Below are positions 3,030-64,000 of a stretch of DNA of 64,000 nucleotides, piece after piece. The stretch's first letter is position 1. Each line of letters opens with the position of its first letter. The notes below the pieces were generated by a model. That model saw only the letters and a list, made by a program, of their open reading frames with translations, was not told the DNA's origin and ran no database searches. The stretch is from positions 1,777,501 to 1,841,500 of the forward strand of contig CM051026.1 in NCBI GenBank assembly GCA_027627225.1, given 5' to 3'. Origin of the DNA: Congeria kusceri (lineage: Eukaryota; Mollusca; Bivalvia; Myida; Dreissenidae). The position numbers were made by a program, and so were the translations under genes.

Positions 3030-4440
3030 GTTTTCTGTCATCCGTCGTCCGTCGTGCGTCGTCAACATTTGCATCGTTCACATTCTAGAGGCCACCTTTA
3101 TTGGTCAATCTTCATGAAACTTGGTCAGAACATGTTTCCTAATTATATCCCGGCCTAGTTCGGATCTGGGTCATATGGGGTCAAAATCAAGGTCACTAGG
3201 TCAAAATGAAGAAATAGTTTGTTAACACTCTAGAAGTCACATTTTTGCCCAATCTTAATGAAACTTGGTCAGAGAACATTTGTGCAAATGGTATCTCAGC
3301 CGAGTTCGAAAATGGTTGCATTCTGTTGAAAATCATGGCCGCCAGTGGGCGGGGCAGTTTTCCTTAAATGGCTGTATTAAAAACTTTATTAAGCTTGTTA
3401 AAACTCTGGAAGTCAAACTTTTTGCCGAATCTTCTTGAAACTTGGTCCGAGTATTTGCTCAATAGATATATCGGCCCACGTTGAATTTGGGTTATTTCGG
3501 GTCTAAAACTAGAAATAGCATTTTTTGCCCGTTTTTATGAAACTTAGTCAGAACATTTATTTTAATGACATCTCGGCCGAATTAGAATTTGGGTCAGGTG
3601 GGGGTCAAAAACTAGATCACTAGGTCAAATGGAAGAAAAAGCTTGTGGACAATATAGAAGTCACATTTTTGCCCAAACTTCATGAAACTTGGTCAGAACA
3701 TTTGTTTTAATGATATCTCGGCCGAGTTGGATTCTGGGTCATGTGGGTTCAAAACAACTAGGTCACTCGGTCAAATTGAAGAACAAGCTTGTTGGGGTGA
3801 AAAACTAGGTGAATAAGTCGAATTGACAAGAATTTTTTTTAACACTCTAGAAGTAACATATTTTGCCAAATCTCCCTGAAACTTGCTCAGAACCTTTGTC
3901 CATATGATATCTTGGCCGAGTTCAAAACTGTGTATTTCGGGGTTCAAAAACTAGGTCACTGGATCAAATTGAAAAAGAAAACATTCGTGAACACTCTAGA
4001 AGTCACATGTTTTGCCCAATCTTTATGAAACTTGGTCAGAACATTTGTTCTTATGGCATCACGGCCAAGTCCGAAAATGGTTCCGCTCTGTTGAAAATAT
4101 GTTTGCCAGGGGGCATGTCAGTTTTCCTCATGTGTCTATAGAAGCAGCTTGTTTACACTTTAGAAATCACTTTTTTTGCCCAACCAACATGCAACTGTCT
4201 CAGAACCGTTGTTCTTAAGATATCTCGGCTGCGTTTGAAAATGGTTCCGCTACCTTGAAAAACATGGCCGCAAGGGGCGGGGCTTTTTCGTTATATGGCT
4301 ATTGAAATAGCTTGTTAACATTCTAGTGGTCACATTTTTTGCCAAGTCAACATGGAACTTGCTCAGCGCTGCTGTTCTTATGATATCTTGGCTGAGTTTG
4401 ATAATGGTTCCGCTCTGTTATGTAATTTTATACGGTGTTG
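3030..4440. repeat. Degenerate tandem array, ~150-165 bp units
   Basis: The phrase TGAAACTTGGTCAGAAC, or a close variant, recurs near 3113, 3260, 3436, 3537, 3681, 3878, 4026, 4189 and 4351. It is accompanied by CACTCTAGAAGTCACAT before it and ATCTCGGCCGAGTT after it. The array opens with CCGTCGTCCGTCGTGCGTCG, a phrase that also opens the repeat at 31375. I associate this repeat type with bivalve genomes. Short open frames inside it (for example 4012-4218) are by-products of the repeat. Confidence 0.8.
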
Positions 4441-8089: not shown

Positions 8090-8162
8090 GGCCCGGTTAG
8101 CTCAGTCGGAAGAGCACTCGCCCTGATAGCGAGGGGTCCCGGGTTCGAGTCCCGGACTGGCC
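8090..8162 (+). tRNA. tRNA-Ile-like gene or tRNA-derived repeat, copy 1
   Basis: The A box (TAGCTCAGTCGG) and B box (GGTTCGAGTCC) match the RNA polymerase III consensus. The D arm (GCTC/GAGC), anticodon stem (CTCGC/GCGAG) and T stem (CCGGG/CCCGG) all form. The acceptor GGCC(C)GGT pairs with ACTGGCC apart from an inserted C. The 7-nt loop is CCTGATA. A normal Ile loop would be CTGATAA with anticodon GAT, so a one-base shift leaves TGA in the anticodon position. Together with the extra acceptor C and an extra C before the T stem, this suggests a tRNA-Ile-derived repeat rather than a working gene. Confidence 0.65.
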
Positions 8163-8188
8163 GCACAATGTTCTCACCCTGTGAAATT

Positions 8189-8352: not shown

Positions 8353-8424
8353 GGCCCGGTTAGCTCAGTCGGAAGAGCACTCGCCCTGATAGCGAGGGGT
8401 CCGGGTTCGAGTCCCGGACAGGCC
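8353..8424 (+). tRNA. tRNA-Ile-like gene or tRNA-derived repeat, copy 2
   Basis: This is nearly identical to copy 1, with the same A box, B box and shifted CCTGATA loop. It lacks the extra C before the T stem. The acceptor 3' strand is ACAGGCC, so one more pair is lost. It is the second member of the 263-bp duplication, and probably a pseudo-tRNA or SINE-like unit. Confidence 0.6.
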
Positions 8425-8450
8425 GCACAATTTTCTCACCCTGTGACATT

Positions 8451-15680: not shown

Positions 15681-16520
15681 GAGAAAATATAATAAAGTTA
15701 TAGTTTAATTATTACACGTTTTATTTGAAAAAAAAATGTTACAAAGTTTACTTTTTAAGTTGATTTTTGCGCAAGAATAAGATAGTGTCGTGCGTTTAGT
15801 TGAGAATTGTTTTAACATAAGAACACCACGTTATGATTTTCAATTCAAACGCCGAAACACCAATTCAATGTCGCGAATAGTTAATATAAAACAAACTGCA
15901 ATACGCAATTAAGTTACGCAGTACAAATAATATATATAACTAGTCATGATTGGATTTAGCCGCTTTATATTGACTACCGATTCTATAAATAACGGTCACG
16001 TCACATACACTGTGAAGATCACGTAACCGGTCATTCTATAAATAGTGATTACAGCTAAATACCACTTTATTAGCACGGTTAAGTAGCAAACATTTTCGAC
16101 GGAATTGAGTAAAATATAGTTCCCAGATAGATAAAAAATAAAAGATTAAAGGTTATCATTCAAGCTAACGTAACATGGTTTAACGGTAGTAAAGGAACAT
16201 GCAAACCAATAATGAAACCTCCACTGGGTATCGAACTCGAGACTTTGTAGCGATAAAAATAAGAAAATAAAATTATGTTGATGGAAAAGACCACCGTTAA
16301 AACGGCGTTATAAAACTCTCGACAGTAATCGTTCATTAGACACGCGATCATTCTATAAATAGAGGTCGAGTAACAGAGCATATCATGGGAGATCACCGTT
16401 AAAATATGCGTTATACAAATTGCCGATAGTAGTCGTTCTTCAGACTCGTGATCTTTCTATAAATATCAATCGAGTTATAGACAATATCAGGAGAGATCAC
16501 TGTTAATAATGTCTGATTGT
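15681..16520. repeat. Segmental duplication copy A right part, with TATAAATA repeats
   Basis: GAAAATATAATAAAG.TATAGTTT near 15683 matches 36783 onward. From about 15950 a degenerate unit of roughly 104 bp recurs: CGATCATTCTATAAATAG, GAGTAACAGA, ATATCAGGAGAGATCACTGTTA, then GTTATAAATTGCCGATAGTAGTCGTTCTT. Related copies lie at 21040-21210, 36985-37870 and 45690-46040. Confidence 0.75.
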
Positions 16521-16529
16521 CTTATTCTG

Positions 16530-16732
16530 GGCTTAGTGTGAGGTTTGGCGCCAATGAAACCGGTTTAAACCCCGAATGCTTTGCATTGACCCGTTCAAGG
16601 CGGTGACCCCAGCTTTATTCATGTGTGTTTTGTGTTTGTTATGTGTTTTTGTGATTTGCTGATTGGTTTTTGGCAATCGATTACTTGCCATATATAAAGG
16701 ACATCGGAGTTATGTCCTGCTGTCGCAGCTGG
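16530..16732 (+). repeat. Dispersed repeat (family A), left part, split by the LTR-flanked element
   Basis: TTAGTGTGAGGTTTGGCGCC, AACCCCGAATGCTTTGCATTGACC, GGTGACCCCAG and GGCAATCGATTACTTGCC match copies near 22185-22390, 23225-23490 and 63690-64000. It is cut at GCAGCTGG (16732) and resumes as GGAGTTTCA at 21000, matching the CTCTGGAGTTTCATT of the copy near 22372. This shows where the element inserted. Confidence 0.8.
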
Positions 16733-17205
16733 AGGTTACAGTATACTAAATATTTCAGGTGTGCAATGCTATACTCTCTAAATAAATCAACACCATTTAT
16801 TTGAAGACACAATTTTCTGTATAGTCACTTGCCATGACTTTATTTTTGAATATTTCTTTGTACGTGTGGTAGGAAAAACATTGTTGTGTACTAAAAATTC
16901 ACTGTTTCGCTTGAAGGTTGGAGACTACATGACGAGACTTTGACAGTTGGCAGTATACCTTCAACTGGAGAGTATCCGGTAAAAAGATGGCCGTAAAACA
17001 GTGAACTTTGATTCGCGTCGAGTTCTTTCTTACATATCACATGACCTATCTTTTTTATTGTCTAAATCAATTCGGCTCGGAATGCTCTTTAAGAAAAGGT
17101 ATGGTTATGAGGGTCTCTACGCGCAAAATGTTGAGTTTATTTTTTGTTGAATTTATTGCTTTTACATTGAATTTGTTAAGGAAATCTTTTAGTATATTGT
17201 GACCT
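16733..17205. repeat. Left direct terminal repeat of the element
   Basis: It reads the same as 20527-20999 over all 473 bp by line-by-line comparison. It contains AATAAA near 16780, a 10-bp inverted repeat (TTCACTGTTT at 16898-16907, AAACAGTGAA at 16996-17005) and a nested 8-bp pair (TTGAAGGT at 16911-16918, ACCTTCAA at 16957-16964). It ends 46 bp before the HNH start codon, so it or the adjoining bases should hold that gene's promoter. Confidence 0.95.
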
Positions 17206-17251
17206 AAACTGACTTTGGGTTAAAATAAAATATCGTCTGCAAGTGCAAAAT

Positions 17252-17793
17252 ATGGATGAGAAAGCAGATTTTTGGTCATTTCTGAGCAAAAGAGTAGAAA
17301 ATATGTGCATTAAATGCATCAATTCAGATTGTTTGATCTGGAATGGTTGTATTTCAAATAGTTCCTTACCCTATTATGGCCGAATGAGGGCTAAATTGCC
17401 TTCGGACATAAAATCAGAGACATACTTGGTTCACCGTGTAGCGTTAATGTGCTACATGAAGTCAGAATTGAACGCCAGGGACTCTGTGAGCCACTTATGC
17501 AACAATAGCTTGTGTGTTAAGCCTGAACATGTAAACATAGAGCCCCATTCCACCAACATGGAACGGCGGACATGTTTACAGTTCGGACAGTGCAGCGGGC
17601 ATGGAACTGAGCCAGCCTGCATATTTGGTAAAAACATGAATACAACAAGCTTTATCACTTCCTTTTATTCATAGAAATACACTTAAAATACATAAATGCA
17701 TGTTTTTTTTCATTTTATATCTATTTCTATTGGGTATTTTTGCCTTTTTCAGGTAGAGGAACGCCTGATGCTGACGCGAGGGCCACTTGTTAG
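17252..17793 (+). CDS. HNH-type nuclease (zinc-binding His-Me endonuclease fold), one intron
   Basis: Predicted metal-dependent DNA nuclease of the His-Me (HNH) type, resembling proteins with the zinc-binding loop of homing endonucleases. Exon 1 is 17252-17627, the intron 17628-17752 (G|GTAAAA to a pyrimidine-rich TTTTTCAG), and exon 2 17753-17793, giving 138 residues. Visible motifs: C18/C21/C27 with WNGC near the start, YYGRMR, LVHR (H61), VSHLCNNSLCV (H81, C83, N84, C88), KPEHVNIE (H93), then C108, C114, H117, C123. These fit Zn ligands plus the beta-beta-alpha catalytic core. The ATG at 17252 is the first in frame after the repeat. Without splicing the frame would run to 17674 with a poor tail. 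The convergent neighbour ends 57 bp away. The assignment as an HNH-type protein is fairly firm. Its role in moving the element is inferred. Confidence 0.85.
17628..17752 (+). other. Predicted intron in the HNH gene
   Basis: The donor GTAAAA follows ATATTTG. The acceptor is preceded by a long pyrimidine tract and reads TTTTTCAG|GT. Splicing restores a glycine codon and adds RGTPDADARATC before TAG at 17791-17793. Confidence 0.65.
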
Positions 17794-17827
17794 AGGTCTC
17801 TTATGCCAAAACAGGTAATAATAACAA

Positions 17828-17833
17828 TTTATT
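17828..17833 (-). terminator. Poly(A) signal for the Mutator-like gene
   Basis: AATAAA on the minus strand lies about 20 bp beyond the stop codon of the 652-codon gene. This is a compact arrangement in the short gap between the convergent genes. Confidence 0.55.
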
Positions 17834-17850
17834 ATCAGGTACACAATCAA

Positions 17851-19809
17851 CTAAGCATATTTATGATGCTTAAGGTGTGGAAGACTGTCATAATCAGGTT
17901 TGGGGTCACTCATGCCCTTGCCGTAGTGTAATTCCTCATGCAGTTTGTATCGATAATTCCGCGTCCTGGCACGTAAAGCTCGTGCTTTGTTGGTAGCGGA
18001 TGTTTGCTTTCGGTTAAGGTCGTTGCGGTCCTCATATGCTATCTGCTTAATAATCTTTGACCCCTGGGTAAGGTTAGCATTTAGTTCAGTGGTTTTTGCA
18101 ATTACAGAGTCAGCATAGCCATTGTTTAATTTGTGAACCTGCCCGTGAATTCGACCTACACAGTTGCGTGAGAAAGTCACAGTTTTAGGATTGACAGCTT
18201 GGTACGACCTGTTTACTGCTTCACTTTTTTGGGTTGTGGTTAAAAGTTTGGTAGCGTCAAGAGCAGCTGGACCTAAAACCATTTCAATGCATTTTTTAAG
18301 GACTTGTTGGTCACTGTCAACCATTTTAACCTTGACATTGTCTGGCATGAAATTCTTAGCTTGCCTATTTGTACCAGCACAGACATAACTGTACTTTGCA
18401 CAATGAGTACCGCAGTAACCACTGAAGCATAGAACAATGGTTGCGATTACATCAACCATGACCTTCTTTAGAACCTTGATGTCACCCTGGTGTTTATTGT
18501 GGGCAGCTTTAAGCTCAGCCATACACCTAGCTTTGACCGAGAGAGCGAACCGACTCCTGATATTAGACTTGGAATGACCCTTGAGCATGCCCTTTGAGAA
18601 AGGCGCTTTGTTGAGCTCGCGCTTCAGCGAGTTGCCTAGGTGCCTCAGATCCTTAAGATGACCCACATTGTGACCGTGAGAGTTACGAACACCTTGGAAT
18701 GCCCTACTGTCCCCATCACAAGTGAAATTTGCTATTTTGATGTCCTTAGAGATCTGGTCACCTAACAACCTATTCCATTTGCCTTCATCACCTATTGGTT
18801 CCCTCTCTGAAACATTTGCAGAACAATGCCCCCTATGATTGGGGCACTGAACAGGTTTACCCTTATTCCTAAGCATTGATGCAGTCCTGCATAGTTTATT
18901 TGCTACTTGTACCACTACAATTTGCTTGTTTCTGGTATTGTTTTCACACATAGTGCTTATGGCAATAGTTCCGGCTTGAAAGGGTGTCGCGTCAGAGTTA
19001 AAAATTGGATTGTTGTAGCAAGTGTCCCCTTCAACATTTACCTTAGAGGGATCTTTTTGACCAATTTTGGCATTTTCAGCAACTAAGTTTTCTCTAATCT
19101 GGTACATGCTTCTCTCATTTAGGGATTTAAGGGCAGTATTGACCTTATTTGCTTGTTTTTGCATAGCAAGTGGAGAGGGAGCAATGATATTGGTTGTGTT
19201 GAGAATTCTGCGGGAACCTGTGTTCCCAATAGAAGTACTTGCAACACCTATTTGGAAGCCTACATTGATCTGAGCTGCCTTTCTGGCCCTGGTACTTGAT
19301 GGAACCTCATTGTAAAGCTTATAATGCTTGCCTACATATCTGCATCTTGTACATTTTAACCTTTCCTCCCAGCCTAAGCCCCACTTTATGGAAGCACTGC
19401 CGTCAATTACCAAGTCGCCCCTACATTTATCACTTCTTAACCTATGCTTTCTATTTTCAGAGGACATCATAGACTGGAGTAGGGCGGGGACATAGACCTT
19501 GTTCGTAAGTAAGTCGGGATGGACTTTTGATGGAGCAGGAACCCGTAACAGGTCTACATAGCGAATCTTGTTCGCTCTCGGACGCAAGGGCTTAGCTGGG
19601 GTTTGAGAGCCGTCTACATCCCGAAAAGTAAGAACCTTGTCATTGTAAGCTACCCGTGCTTCAAAGGATGACCTTTCTAACCTTACATAGGTTGTGTTGG
19701 AATTTGACCTTCTTTCATAATTATGTTTTTTCCCCTTCACCGGACTAGTCCCACCTCGTTTAAAACCAACATTGAGCAACTTTTTCTTTTGCTTGGTTAT
19801 GAACCCCAT
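17851..19809 (-). CDS. Mutator-like (MULE-type) transposase-like protein, 652 aa, intact
   Basis: Probable DDE-type, RNase H-fold transposase related to the Mutator-like domain proteins I recall from mollusc and cnidarian genomes. The frame is uninterrupted from ATG at 19809. The basic N-terminus (KKKLLNVGFKRGG) could bind DNA. A zinc-ribbon-like LKCTRCRYVGKHY lies at 151-163. Next is RKAAQINVGFQIGV (176-189). The first candidate catalytic Asp is D262 in NVEGDTCYNN. CPNHRGHC (322-329) is a Cys/His motif. The second candidate Asp is D365 or D367 in FTCDGDSRAF. CFSGYCGTHCAKYSYVC (461-477) is Cys-rich. The candidate Glu is E529 in TQKSEAVNRSY, followed by NPKTVTFSRNCVGR. The C-terminus is basic. 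It converges on the HNH gene and lies 717 bp from the right repeat, so its promoter is in that gap or the repeat. Base composition is less AT-rich than the surroundings. The transposase activity is inferred from motifs. Confidence 0.8.
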   Translation of the reverse strand: MGFITKQKKKLLNVGFKRGGTSPVKGKKHNYERRSNSNTTYVRLERSSFEARVAYNDKVLTFRDVDGSQTPAKPLRPRANKIRYVDLLRVPAPSKVHPDLLTNKVYVPALLQSMMSSENRKHRLRSDKCRGDLVIDGSASIKWGLGWEERLKCTRCRYVGKHYKLYNEVPSSTRARKAAQINVGFQIGVASTSIGNTGSRRILNTTNIIAPSPLAMQKQANKVNTALKSLNERSMYQIRENLVAENAKIGQKDPSKVNVEGDTCYNNPIFNSDATPFQAGTIAISTMCENNTRNKQIVVVQVANKLCRTASMLRNKGKPVQCPNHRGHCSANVSEREPIGDEGKWNRLLGDQISKDIKIANFTCDGDSRAFQGVRNSHGHNVGHLKDLRHLGNSLKRELNKAPFSKGMLKGHSKSNIRSRFALSVKARCMAELKAAHNKHQGDIKVLKKVMVDVIATIVLCFSGYCGTHCAKYSYVCAGTNRQAKNFMPDNVKVKMVDSDQQVLKKCIEMVLGPAALDATKLLTTTQKSEAVNRSYQAVNPKTVTFSRNCVGRIHGQVHKLNNGYADSVIAKTTELNANLTQGSKIIKQIAYEDRNDLNRKQTSATNKARALRARTRNYRYKLHEELHYGKGMSDPKPDYDSLPHLKHHKYA

Positions 19810-20526
19810 TTTGACCAGATTGCCACCTTAAAAAAAGTCAAAGTACTTATTTTGTGCCCAAAATATGCAATTTTGTATTCCCTTAAACCTCTAAATGTGA
19901 GCAGGCAATGCAAATTGACCACCTGCTGCAGTTTAAAGGCACTCATGACATTATATACTAGAATATATAATTGGTGGCCTGTAATTAAAGAGGCTGCGAC
20001 AAACAAGGTGCTTTAAAGATTTTACACTTTATTGGTTTGAAACAAGCAATTACTGGAAGCTGATTGATTTCTACACTTCAAAGTATCTTTGATCTCCCAT
20101 TTTGACTAATTTGTTAATTGTCTTGGATGAAATTGGAATTTTTTTTCTATAAAATTTACATTTTTGGGGTGATTTTTTTTAAAAAATACACAAAAAATAC
20201 ATTATCAAAATGGCTTAGAGTAAACATATCTAACAAAGTCATTCTCTCCTCACCCCACATAAGCCCCCCATACATGTTTGTTTGGTTTGTTTGGGTATTT
20301 TGTCACAAATATTGCAAATATCAGCTTTAATTGTTAGAGGGACATTTAAGCTTCAAGACGCTTGAAATCACCGGCTTCCGACCAAAATCACCTGTGTTTG
20401 AAAATATGAAATAAAATGGCCAAATGGACAGATATACAAGCCAAACTTAATATATTGGTGCAATATGCATGGGAAGATAATTATATGCAAGAAAAACTAA
20501 TTTTAATGAGAACAAATTTCTCTTAT
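19810..20526. other. Internal non-coding part of the element
   Basis: This lies between the start of the Mutator-like gene and the right repeat and probably holds that gene's 5' untranslated region and promoter. It includes a TTCAAG-ACG-CTTGAA palindrome near 20352-20366 and long T runs at 20140-20180. I see no convincing exon. Confidence 0.5.
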
Positions 20527-20999
20527 AGGTTACAGTATACTAAATATTTCAGGTGTGCAATGCTATACTCTCTAAATAAATCAACACCATTTATTTGAAG
20601 ACACAATTTTCTGTATAGTCACTTGCCATGACTTTATTTTTGAATATTTCTTTGTACGTGTGGTAGGAAAAACATTGTTGTGTACTAAAAATTCACTGTT
20701 TCGCTTGAAGGTTGGAGACTACATGACGAGACTTTGACAGTTGGCAGTATACCTTCAACTGGAGAGTATCCGGTAAAAAGATGGCCGTAAAACAGTGAAC
20801 TTTGATTCGCGTCGAGTTCTTTCTTACATATCACATGACCTATCTTTTTTATTGTCTAAATCAATTCGGCTCGGAATGCTCTTTAAGAAAAGGTATGGTT
20901 ATGAGGGTCTCTACGCGCAAAATGTTGAGTTTATTTTTTGTTGAATTTATTGCTTTTACATTGAATTTGTTAAGGAAATCTTTTAGTATATTGTGACCT
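20527..20999. repeat. Right direct terminal repeat of the element
   Basis: It reads the same as the left repeat. It is followed directly by GGAGTTTCA of the interrupted family-A repeat. The base before it is T and the base after it is G. In the left copy these are G and A, which fixes the 473-bp limits. Confidence 0.95.
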
Positions 21000-21039
21000 G
21001 GAGTTTCACTTTGTTTATATTTATAGAAATTGTCGATAT

Positions 21040-21210
21040 TTGTCGTTCCTAAGCCAGCGGTAATGCTACAAACAGCGCTCAAATCACATACAATGTCAAG
21101 AGAGATCACCATAACAACTGCGTTATAAATTTTTTAAATAGTTGTCGTTCTTGAGACATATGGTTATTCTATAGATATCAATCGCGCCACAGACAAAATG
21201 CTCAATATTT
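21040..21210. repeat. Degenerate copies of the ~104-bp TATAAATA repeat
   Basis: ATGTCAAGAGAGATCACCATAACAACTGCGTTATAAAT-like and TTCTATAGATATCAATCGCG phrases match the units at 15950-16520 and 36985-37870. This lies just past the element, so the element sits between stretches of the same repeat context. Confidence 0.6.
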
Positions 21211-21885
21211 GCACAGATTACTAACAAATTGCGTCATTTGTCTACATGCGTCACCGTAATTGAGTGTAAATATAGTTCCGTATAGAGTAAATGAACATGG
21301 TTTTACTATACCACTGACAGGGAACCGATTTGAAAGTTTTACGTTTTTACTAACCTTAACCCTAACCCTTTAAAAGTTAAAACCTATCCACAAGCGCGTC
21401 ATAATACTAGTAGTTGAACTGTTTACGTTACGTGAGCATACATCATTAAATGTAGTATTTATTAATATTAGATTTCATTCGCGTTTTGTAGAATTAAATA
21501 TTTTTTTTTTTTTTGCATTTTATGTCTGCATGAATATTAATGGCTATTTTTCATTGTTTATTAAACTATCGATTTCAATAAAAATAATTACACAAGTTTA
21601 GCATATACAACCAAGCTATGTAATCAGGCCTTTTACACAGCTGTTACTATTACGGCTTCTTCCTGGAACGCACGACGATGATCTGTAACATGTAGTTTAT
21701 GATGCTAGGTCTTGAACAAGCAGAGATTTAGCTGATACTTGTATTTACTTCATTTCACTGTGCCTCAGAAAGTTGCAGTTTTGTTGCTCTAATAAACATT
21801 AAATAATTGAGTAATTAAATTGTAATTCAATTGTATTAATATTCTCTTTTATCGCTTCCTTTCAATCGCCATGCTTCGAGTTAAT
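21211..21885. other. Non-coding stretch with a short telomere-like motif
   Basis: AACCTTAACCCTAACCC (about 21353-21369) resembles interstitial CCCTAA repeats but has only about two and a half units. Nothing else is recognised. Confidence 0.4.
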
Positions 21886-22150
21886 ATGAGGCGCGTCGTG
21901 GGAAAACCGGACTTAATGCATGTGCGTAAAGTGTCGTCCCGGATAAGCCTGTGTAATCCGCACAGGCTAATCCGGAACGGCACTTTCCGCCTACTGTGTA
22001 TTTATGCTTAGAAGAGACTTCCTTGAAACAGAAAATACCATAAAAGCGGAAAGTGCCGTCCTGGATTAGCCTGCCCGGACTGCACAGGCTAATCCGGGAC
22101 GACACTTTACGCACATGCATTAAGACCGGTTTACACACGACGCGCCACAT
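21886..22150. mobile_element. Foldback MITE, 265 bp
   Basis: Outer arms ATGAGGCGCGTCGTGGG and (reversed) ATGTGGCGCGTCGTGTG are followed on both sides by AAACCGG.CTTAATGCATG, TGCGTAAAGTGTCGTCCCGG and AGCCTGTG. The arms themselves contain an inner inverted pair (CACAGGCTAATCCGG, GCGGAAAGTGCCGTCC). The unit is GC-rich against AT-rich flanks and has no coding capacity. I recall this sequence type as frequent in bivalves. Confidence 0.85.
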
Positions 22151-22184
22151 ATGTATTTATAAGTGTGTGTCTTTTGATTAATTC

Positions 22185-24059: not shown

Positions 24060-24872
24060 TGCATAGCTACACACATGACGCTGATAGTTACATACACCAG
24101 TGTTCACAATTACAATGTAGCTACACACATGACGCTGATAGTTAAACACACCAGTGTTCACAATTACAATGTAGCTACACACATGACGCTGATAGTTACA
24201 TACTGTACACCAGTGTTCAGAATTACAATGTAGCTACACACATGACGCTGATAGTTACATACACCAGTGTTCACAATTACAATGTAGCTACACACATGAC
24301 GCTGATAGTTACATACTGTACACCAGTGTTCACAATTACAATGTAGCTACACACATGACGCTGATTGTTACATACACCAGTGCTCACAATTACAGTGCAG
24401 CTACACACATGACGCTGATTGTTACATACACCAGTGCTCACAATTACAATGTAGCTACACACATGACGCTGATTGTTACATACACCAGTGCTCACAATTA
24501 CAATGCAGCTACACACATGACGCTGATAGTTACACACACCAGTGTTCACAATTACAATGTAGCTACACACATGACGCTGATAGTTACATACACCAGTGTT
24601 CACAATTACAATGTAGCTACACTACATGACGCTGATAGTTACATACACCAGTGTTCACAATTACAATGTAGCTACACACATGACGCTGATAGTTACATAC
24701 ACCCTTGTTCACAATTACAATGTCGATTAGATAGCATAGCTACACTACATGACACTGATGGTTACATACACCAGTGTTCACAATTACAATGTCGATTAGA
24801 TAGCATAGCTACACTACATGACACTGATAGTTACATACACCAGTGTTCACAATTACAATGTCGATTAGATAT
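24060..24872. repeat. 54-bp minisatellite, about 14 copies
   Basis: AGCTACACACATGACGCTGA followed by TAGTTACATACACCAGTG and TTCACAATTACAATGT repeats every 54 bp, with 58-bp variants carrying CTGTAC. The last units lengthen to about 68 bp by adding CGATTAGATAGCAT. Open frames on both strands are a result of the period being divisible by three. Confidence 0.95.
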
Positions 24873-59404: not shown

Positions 59405-60215
59405 TGTATACTAATGAAACTGATACTCTCTAATCATATAATTATATTGTGAACCATGCCAATTCTGTTTATTGATAATCAACTAAGTGAGTATTGTATA
59501 CTAATGAAACTGATACTCTCTAATCATATAATTATATCGTGAACCATGCCAATTCTGTTTATTGATAATCAACTAAGTGAGTATTGTATACTAATGAAAC
59601 TGATACTCTCTAATCATATAATTATATCGTGAACCATGCCAATTCTGTTTATTGATAATCAACTAAGTGAGTATTGTATACTAATGAAACTGATACTCTC
59701 TAATCATATAATTATATCGTGAACCATGCCAATTCTGTTTATTGATAATCAACTAAGTGAGTATTGTATACTAATGAAACTGACACTCTCTAATCATATA
59801 ATTATATTGTGAACCATGCCAATTCTGTTTATTGATAATCAACTAAGTGAGTATTGTATACTAATGAAACTGATACTCTCTAATCATATAATTATATCGT
59901 GAACCATGCCAATTCTGTTTATTGATAATCAACTAAGTGAGTATTGTATACTAATGAAACTGACACTCTCTAATCATATAATTATATCGTGAACCATGCC
60001 AATTCTGTTTATTGATAATCAACTAAGTGAGTATTGTATACTAATGAAACTGACACTCTCTAATCATATAATTATATCGTGAACCATGCCAATTCTGTTT
60101 ATTGATAATCAACTAAGTGAGTATTGTATACTAATGAAACTGACACTCTCTAATCATATAATTATATCGTGAACCATGCCAATTCTGTTTATTGATAATC
60201 AACTAAGTGAGTATT
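59405..60215. repeat. 90-bp satellite, nine copies
   Basis: GTATACTAATGAAACTGA starts units at 59406, 59496, 59586, 59676, 59766, 59856, 59946, 60036 and 60126, an exact 90-bp period. Units are nearly identical, with two variable sites (GATACTC or GACACTC; ATATTGTG or ATATCGTG). The array lies just inside the right inverted repeat of the nest. Confidence 0.97.
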
Positions 60216-60624
60216 TATAACATTTTAAAAGTAATACGCTTTAAATTACCGCTATTTAACCAGTATTAACCACTATCGATACATCGCTGGCCTCGTTTTC
60301 GATTCGCAAATAAATTATTGTGTCGTGATAATCGCTAAAATTGGGAATGTGAAAGTCGTCTGTTATGAGGTGGATCGCAACTCCGCGCTCTGAGCGCTTT
60401 ATCTCAATATTAAATGTAGCTCAAAATAAAAATAAAAATTTTATTTAATAAAATTATTTCCATGTCACATATATTAAAAAGTCATATCGTTATGAAGAAA
60501 ACGCATTTTATTGCAGTCATTATTTAAAATTAAAACTGAGTATTCGCAAATGGATATTACAAATACAACCAATTAGAACAATAATGTCACAATAGACATA
60601 ATACTAACAACAGCAACAACACAC

Positions 60625-63689: not shown

Positions 63690-64000
63690 TTAGTATTAGT
63701 TTAAATCCCCAAAGCATTGCATTGACCGTTAAAGAGCGGTGACCCCAGTTGTATTATTTGTTGTGTGTCATGATTTTTTTGTATCGTGCCGTGTTGTTTT
63801 GGCAATTGGTCAGTTGCCGTAAATAAAGGACCTCGTGCCGTGTTGTTTTGGCAATTGGTCAGTTGCCGTAAATAAAGGACCTCGTGCCGTGTTGTTTTGG
63901 CAATTGGTCAGTTGCCGTAAATAAAGGACCTCGTGCCGTGTTGTTTTGGCAATTGGTCAGTTGCCGTAAATAAAGGACCTCGTGCCGTGTTGTTTTGGCA
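63690..64000 (+). repeat. Family A repeat with 49-bp tail amplification
   Basis: TTTAAATCCCCAAAGCATTGC, ATTGACCGTTAAAGAGCGGT and GACCCCAG match family A. The tail CGTGCCGTGTTGTTTTGGCA, followed by ATTGGTCAGTTGCCGTAAAT, then repeats at 63785, 63834, 63883, 63932 and 63981 with an exact 49-bp period and runs off the window end. Confidence 0.9.

Follow-up and report, generated by a model that had tools for sequence, protein, structure and literature searches.

The closest described systems are the KolobokP transposons, published in 2022 (Kojima & Bao 2022, Mob DNA 13:24, PMC9587614). They carry long terminal direct repeats (LTDRs) of about 450 or 660 bp around an internal region (INT), and each LTDR has its own inverted termini of up to 18 bp and the ends 5'-RR and YY-3'. 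The INT encodes a DDD/E transposase and a His-Me finger nuclease in convergent orientation; target duplications are 3-5 bp long, and solo LTDRs and multimers occur. KolobokP is especially rich in bivalves, with hosts including Dreissena rostriformis and D. polymorpha. In all, 228 families have been published, and the tables, as given in the main text, reach 118 monomers, 290 solo LTDRs and 30 multimers per family (PMC9587614). A literature search for the name KolobokP returned no paper besides Kojima & Bao 2022. Here we consider an element at positions 16733-20999 of a 64,000-nucleotide stretch of Congeria kusceri DNA (contig CM051026.1, positions 1,777,501 to 1,841,500; hereafter the window). 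As far as its sequence allows the comparison, the element is a member of KolobokP, matching on every feature that could be clearly tested. The reading that we favour, with a probability of roughly 85%, is that of a KolobokP element lying between 4-bp target copies, whose transposase likely cuts and joins at the inverted termini of the LTDRs and whose nuclease is predicted to make breaks through which inserted copies multiply in place.

The features shared with KolobokP are the repeat length, the inverted termini in each LTDR, the GG...CC ends, the short target duplication, the DDD/E transposase with zinc fingers, the I-PpoI-type nuclease residues, the convergent genes, and the presence of solo LTDRs and multimers. 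The LTDR-INT-LTDR layout is the same and the repeats belong to the class of about 450 bp, a 473-bp LTDR being among the published ones; the element length lies within the 4,022-4,748 bp of the autonomous oyster families (PMC9587614). The original prediction, made from the window alone, described a recent insertion of a mobile element with direct repeats and DDE-type and HNH-type proteins, which is what we find. It also held that this structure matched no known superfamily. However, the same architecture had been published in 2022 as KolobokP (PMC9587614), and with this precedent that framing falls. With the Kolobok superfamily as a whole the element shares the DDD/E transposase, the C/DxxH motif, zinc fingers and a 4-bp duplication, TTAA being among the duplications seen here. 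It differs in that the superfamily has TTAA-specific duplications and inverted ends (PMC9587614), whereas here the target is TNNA and the repeats are direct.

The two direct repeats, 16733-17205 and 20527-20999, are identical at 473 of 473 bases, as had been noticed, these limits being those of the maximal exact repeat; they bound a span of 4,267 bp. Each has its own imperfect terminal inverted repeat, with 16 of 18 positions paired, a level reached by 1 in 100,000 random 18-mer pairs drawn from the repeat. Judged from the window alone, duplications of 2, 4 or 6 bp are all compatible with this copy; the 4-bp frame is settled by the duplications at other insertions. In that frame the outermost bases of the 473-bp repeat, A and T, fall partly in the TNNA target and partly in the T... 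and ...A ends of the INT. The resulting GG...CC ends are symmetric and fit KolobokP, giving 471-bp repeats at 16734-17204 and 20528-20998 with the TGGA duplication outside. The features of the element are as follows.

16730-16733, no strand: left target-site duplication TGGA, by the same TNNA rule as at other insertions
16734-17204, plus strand: left LTDR, 471 bp, GG...CC, with the boundary taken from duplications elsewhere
16733-16750, plus strand: outer terminal inverted repeat of the left LTDR, pairing with 17188-17205 at 16 of 18 positions
17188-17205, minus strand: inner terminal inverted repeat of the left LTDR
17205-20527, no strand: INT, starting with TAAA and ending with TATA
17252-17627, plus strand: nuclease exon 1, 125 aa, with His-Me finger residues S80, H81, H93, E97 and N102
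17628-17752, plus strand: predicted GT...AG intron of the nuclease gene, from candidate splice sites enumerated in the sequence
17753-17793, plus strand: predicted nuclease exon 2 with stop codon; spliced product of 138 aa
17851-19809, minus strand: intact DDD/E transposase gene, 652 aa, with D262, D365/D367, DxxH (D387-H390), E530 and two zinc-finger motifs
20528-20998, plus strand: right LTDR, same as the left
20527-20544, plus strand: inner terminal inverted repeat of the right LTDR
20982-20999, minus strand: outer terminal inverted repeat of the right LTDR
20999-21002, no strand: right target-site duplication TGGA

The duplications at the window copy and at two sets of further insertions show that the target is TNNA and not strictly TTAA. 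Ten other loci were read at both ends, among them two solo LTDRs (C1:91334236 and C2:100045414; C numbers denote contigs) and one two-unit array; in the GG...CC frame their duplications are TTAA, TTAA, TTCA, TAA, TGTA, TTTA, TATA, TAA, TTTA and TACA. In a second sample of 20 insertions, taken from the junction list, both ends were in view at 15, and each of these is flanked by a duplication, of 4 bp at 12 sites (11 of them TNNA), 3 bp at two and 6 bp at one. At the other five the fetched stretch contains no right terminus.

The transposase gene on the minus strand had been foreseen as an intact 652-codon gene and is so. Its product matches PF20700, 'Mutator-like transposase', with E 8e-41. In an alignment of 26 sequences (the query and 25 of 40 homologues, the 15 left out being mostly shorter) the invariant residues are D262, C307/C322/H325/C329, D387/H390, C461/C470/C477 and E530; thus the third acidic residue is E530 and not E529, as had been proposed. 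The Kolobok signature is present: C/DxxH, a CCHC finger past the first D, and a further finger between DxxH and E. The nearest full-length relatives are D. polymorpha proteins (85-87%). The predicted structure best matches the transposase of ISCth4 (PDB 6xgx, 6xg8) at 11-12% identity; ISCth4 is a bacterial insertion sequence of the IS256 family. A shared fold is no proof of a common pathway. A phage or viral source was considered and rejected: searches with the transposase found no match among phage records and no confirmed relative among viral contigs.

The nuclease lies on the plus strand, convergent with the transposase gene. The original prediction of a spliceable convergent HNH gene holds for orientation and predicted splicing, the unspliced frame of 143 aa (17243-17674) giving the 138-aa product once the predicted intron is removed; the residue pattern, however, is of the His-Cys box (I-PpoI) type. 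The protein matches PF05551, 'zf-His_Me_endon' (zinc-binding loop region of homing endonuclease), with E 2.5e-10. A homologue search gave two relatives, and S80, H81, C83, C88, H93, E97, N102, C108 and C114 are present in all three aligned proteins, H117 and C123 in two of the three. Nucleases of the His-Cys box group have a beta-beta-alpha metal fold. Residues S97, H98, H110, E114 and N119 of I-PpoI (numbering of PMC9587614) correspond to S80, H81, H93, E97 and N102 here at a constant offset of 17. The I-PpoI His-Cys box homing endonuclease is encoded by a group I intron, whereas the present nuclease is encoded by a transposon. Neither of the two scanned proteins has a reverse transcriptase or gag domain in Pfam, which agrees with the absence of such genes noted originally, at the scope of these two proteins; the other short frames lay outside the scan, and no search was aimed at a primer site or purine tract.

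The 1.55-Gb genome was searched with exact patterns, which miss diverged copies. Positions and runs come from the first 100 places of each of the LTDR-start, LTDR-to-INT and INT-INT searches. There are 2,383 exact 24-mer LTDR starts, 1,883 exact LTDR-to-INT junctions and 179 exact INT-INT joints of one type; the reversed control pattern gave 0 in each case. The search with the repeat, which the original prediction had proposed, thus found full copies, solo LTDRs and target duplications. On C1, a contig of 116 Mb, the listed places form 36 loci at a linking distance of 20 kb; 20 of the 36 look like monomers, with one junction and a pair of LTDR starts, and three show a lone LTDR without a junction. 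The longest run on C1 among the matches listed is 54 kb (C1:112858751-112912337) and that on C8 is 88 kb (C8:14112989-14200713), these two longest runs being inferred from junction spacing and not from read-through sequence. Similarity searches scored the best 40 of 394 and the best 150 of 4,973 candidates, and identity in them is partly a matter of selection: nuclease exon 1 is identical in 150 of the 150 scored from 4,973. The amplification is extreme and very recent.

The element fills two contigs end to end, C462 (105,110 bp) and C540 (79,278 bp), practically every base being LTDR or two-gene INT. The original prediction had asked whether the repeat might serve mainly in elements with gag and pol; these contigs, read whole (105 and 79 kb), hold only LTDR and INT. 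Multimers come both with and without LTDRs between head-to-tail units. At ten INT-INT joints on C462 and C540, 2, 4 or 5 bp are lost relative to the summed INT ends, as compared with the published micro-deletions of 3-4 bp, which have been read as LTDR excision (PMC9587614). Differences from the published families are the 2,383 exact LTDR starts, the array-only contigs of 79 and 105 kb, and unit lengths private to each array; the main text of PMC9587614 describes no array of this size.

In the listed runs, arrays with LTDRs have private unit lengths, for instance 3776 bp six times, 3752 three times and 3779 twice, and so do LTDR-free arrays (3288 three times, 3279-3280 three times, 2922-2924 three times). 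In both sets the deviation of unit length within these runs is smaller than in all 5,000 shuffles, the test taking only spacings of 2.8-3.9 kb. In the seven-unit array C2:54844780-54871684 a single difference sets one INT unit apart from the other six, which are identical; against the window INT, every unit shows 13-14 substitutions and an 18-bp gap. The entire array lies inside a single duplication of 3 bp, TAA. For another C2 array, the part compared shows one substitution between the first unit and the last, and 15 relative to the window copy. Four other multimers have one duplication each: TACA on C6 (four units), TACA on C11, TAAA on C12 and TTTA on C4 (two units).

The private unit lengths and the uniform seven-unit array speak for amplification of a single founder, either at its site or as a pre-insertion concatemer, rather than for circles captured repeatedly out of a pool spanning the genome. 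Units derived from a shared pool would be expected to vary in length within arrays as much as between them, and in the listed runs they do not. The transposase would insert the whole element at TNNA, cutting and joining at the inverted ends of the LTDRs, and may also act on single LTDRs, as published for KolobokP. The founder copy would then multiply locally by unequal sister exchange or break-induced repair, with the nuclease as the likely source of breaks, in line with the published proposal and the nuclease family. We infer transposase-driven insertion from the anatomy and the duplications, and local amplification from the uniformity of the arrays. A further-reaching version, which we regard as tentative and somewhat doubtful, is that KolobokP turns its own insertions into satellite-scale arrays, the nuclease provoking repair against the sister copy, so that a founder multiplies in place, first via LTDRs and later, after their excision, between bare INT units, up to 50-100 kb or more with private lengths.

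Several observations weigh against, or limit, the favoured reading. A sequence search of the nuclease against solved structures did not recover I-PpoI (the sole match, a DNA primase at E 0.23, was judged to be chance), and the structure model of the nuclease, built from three sequences only, has a pLDDT of 34. The best match to the I-PpoI site (taken from part of PMC6294500) within the LTDR is 10 of 15 bases, a value given without a shuffle control. LTDR-free uniform arrays exist, e.g. C8:60427112-60447038 and C9:8076790-8086654; thus growth can proceed when no LTDR separates the units, and the published proposal of LTDR cutting as the driver is weakened. The variants of C462 form a mosaic scattered over non-adjacent units, and therefore not every array is a clean expansion of a single founder, unless the assembly mixed reads, as it could in unplaced contigs of this sort. 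Finally, a ready-made concatemer inserted once would equally give private units within one duplication.

We also considered abutted LTDR ends as an I-PpoI-like target. The best palindrome with 6-bp arms inside the LTDR has five of six pairs. Of the 16 positions in a palindrome built on the right half-site of I-PpoI, abutted ends with a TTAA centre agree at 12, four of which are the inserted centre itself, and a half-site match of 4 of 6 is found in 2.2% of random LTDR 6-mers; this is too weak to claim.

Among the alternatives, the one that survives best is that the arrays arose from extrachromosomal LTDR-INT circles of a genome-wide pool, integrating into the LTDRs of existing copies. Circle capture is one of the multimer models proposed for KolobokP, besides LTDR-LTDR exchange and nuclease-induced exchange; its authors left the choice open and state that their model awaits experimental validation, and they link the group of the nearest fold, ISCth4, to circle formation (PMC9587614). 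The mosaic variants of C462 also agree with circles, and three LTDR-TAAA-LTDR junctions resemble abutted ends with a 4-bp spacer. However, the 4-bp spacer is not exclusive: at ten LTDR-LTDR joints with spacers of 0-12 bp we observed 4 bp three times, 5 bp once, 9 bp three times, 11 bp twice and 12 bp once. With such varied spacers INT loss explains the joints equally well, and we do not claim the three as circle junctions. Moreover, unit lengths are array-private, and the units of the two compared arrays are nearly identical to each other and not to the window copy. Capture from a common pool is thus rather unlikely as the main source of the arrays.

Less probable still is that the long arrays are assembly artefacts, i.e. 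collapsed or mis-joined reads of thousands of near-identical copies. C462 and C540 are all array with both contig ends within the element, and the first 24 kb of C540 are rich in small indels, like a poor consensus. On the other hand, the multimers on the large contigs C2, C4, C6, C11 and C12 have intact outer termini and a single matching duplication.

The label of PF20700 suggests a Mutator-like element (MULE), or a MULE that came by chance to lie with an HNH gene inside direct repeats; this reading is highly improbable. MULEs are bounded by inverted repeats and usually have target duplications of 8-9 bp, whereas here the duplications are 3-4 bp in 14 of 15 cases, mostly TNNA, the repeats are direct with 18-bp inverted termini, and the transposase has the Kolobok zinc-finger pattern. 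Chance assembly is disfavoured by the distance of the nuclease from the start of the LTDR, 519 bp at all five plus-strand places compared, and by whole INT units recurring on C462 and C540. The weakest reading, a retroelement with long terminal repeats (LTRs) that captured both genes, would account for long identical direct end repeats (as reverse-transcribed LTRs), solo repeats and multimers, and is rejected with the MULE readings, given GG...CC ends with an 18-bp inverted terminus instead of TG...CA, transposase and nuclease domains only in the two proteins scanned, 179 repeat-free INT-INT junctions of one type, unpredicted by retroelement recombination, and a published family of the same parts that is a DNA transposon (PMC9587614).

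Some further structures were observed at other copies. Three LTDR-LTDR joints (C10:7369708, C332:125096 and C859:18121) have a common 9-bp spacer, TAAATTATA, which reads like the first and last bases of the INT; the INT seems to have been lost with the same remnant at three places. A head-to-head LTDR pair, one member lacking its outer 9 bases, forms an inverted joint at C5:83506700-83508000 in a KolobokP cluster (83461879-83519189) whose INT starts differ by about 1% from the window copy at the three places read. At C2:107145383-107145660 the final LTDR of a private-length array stops at LTDR position 278, a possible point of breakage or insertion.

The window copy lies between older related repeats, in line with the insertion into an older repeat that was originally suggested: they flank it at 16308-16487 and 21021-21199 (71% alike), and the left flank resembles 63699-63835 (75% alike). 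A tandem repeat with a 49-bp unit (63784-64000, 100% matches) and the stretch preceding it also resemble this flank. Beside the insertion, 21884-22152 contains two 120-bp arms, 86% complementary and separated by 29 bp, with the look of a miniature inverted-repeat transposable element. Other tandem repeats are found at 59405-60219 (90-bp unit, 99% matches) and 24064-24871 (54/69-bp units, 93-95% matches). The plus strand has two tRNA matches, at 8091-8163 and 8354-8425, with 190 bp between them.

The resemblance of the predicted transposase to that of ISCth4 is a lead for biochemistry. The thousands of near-identical copies in this genome allow the models of KolobokP multimers to be compared on real arrays. 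If the tentative version of local growth is true, a transposon carrying a homing endonuclease to build its own arrays would possess another route of multiplication besides transposition.

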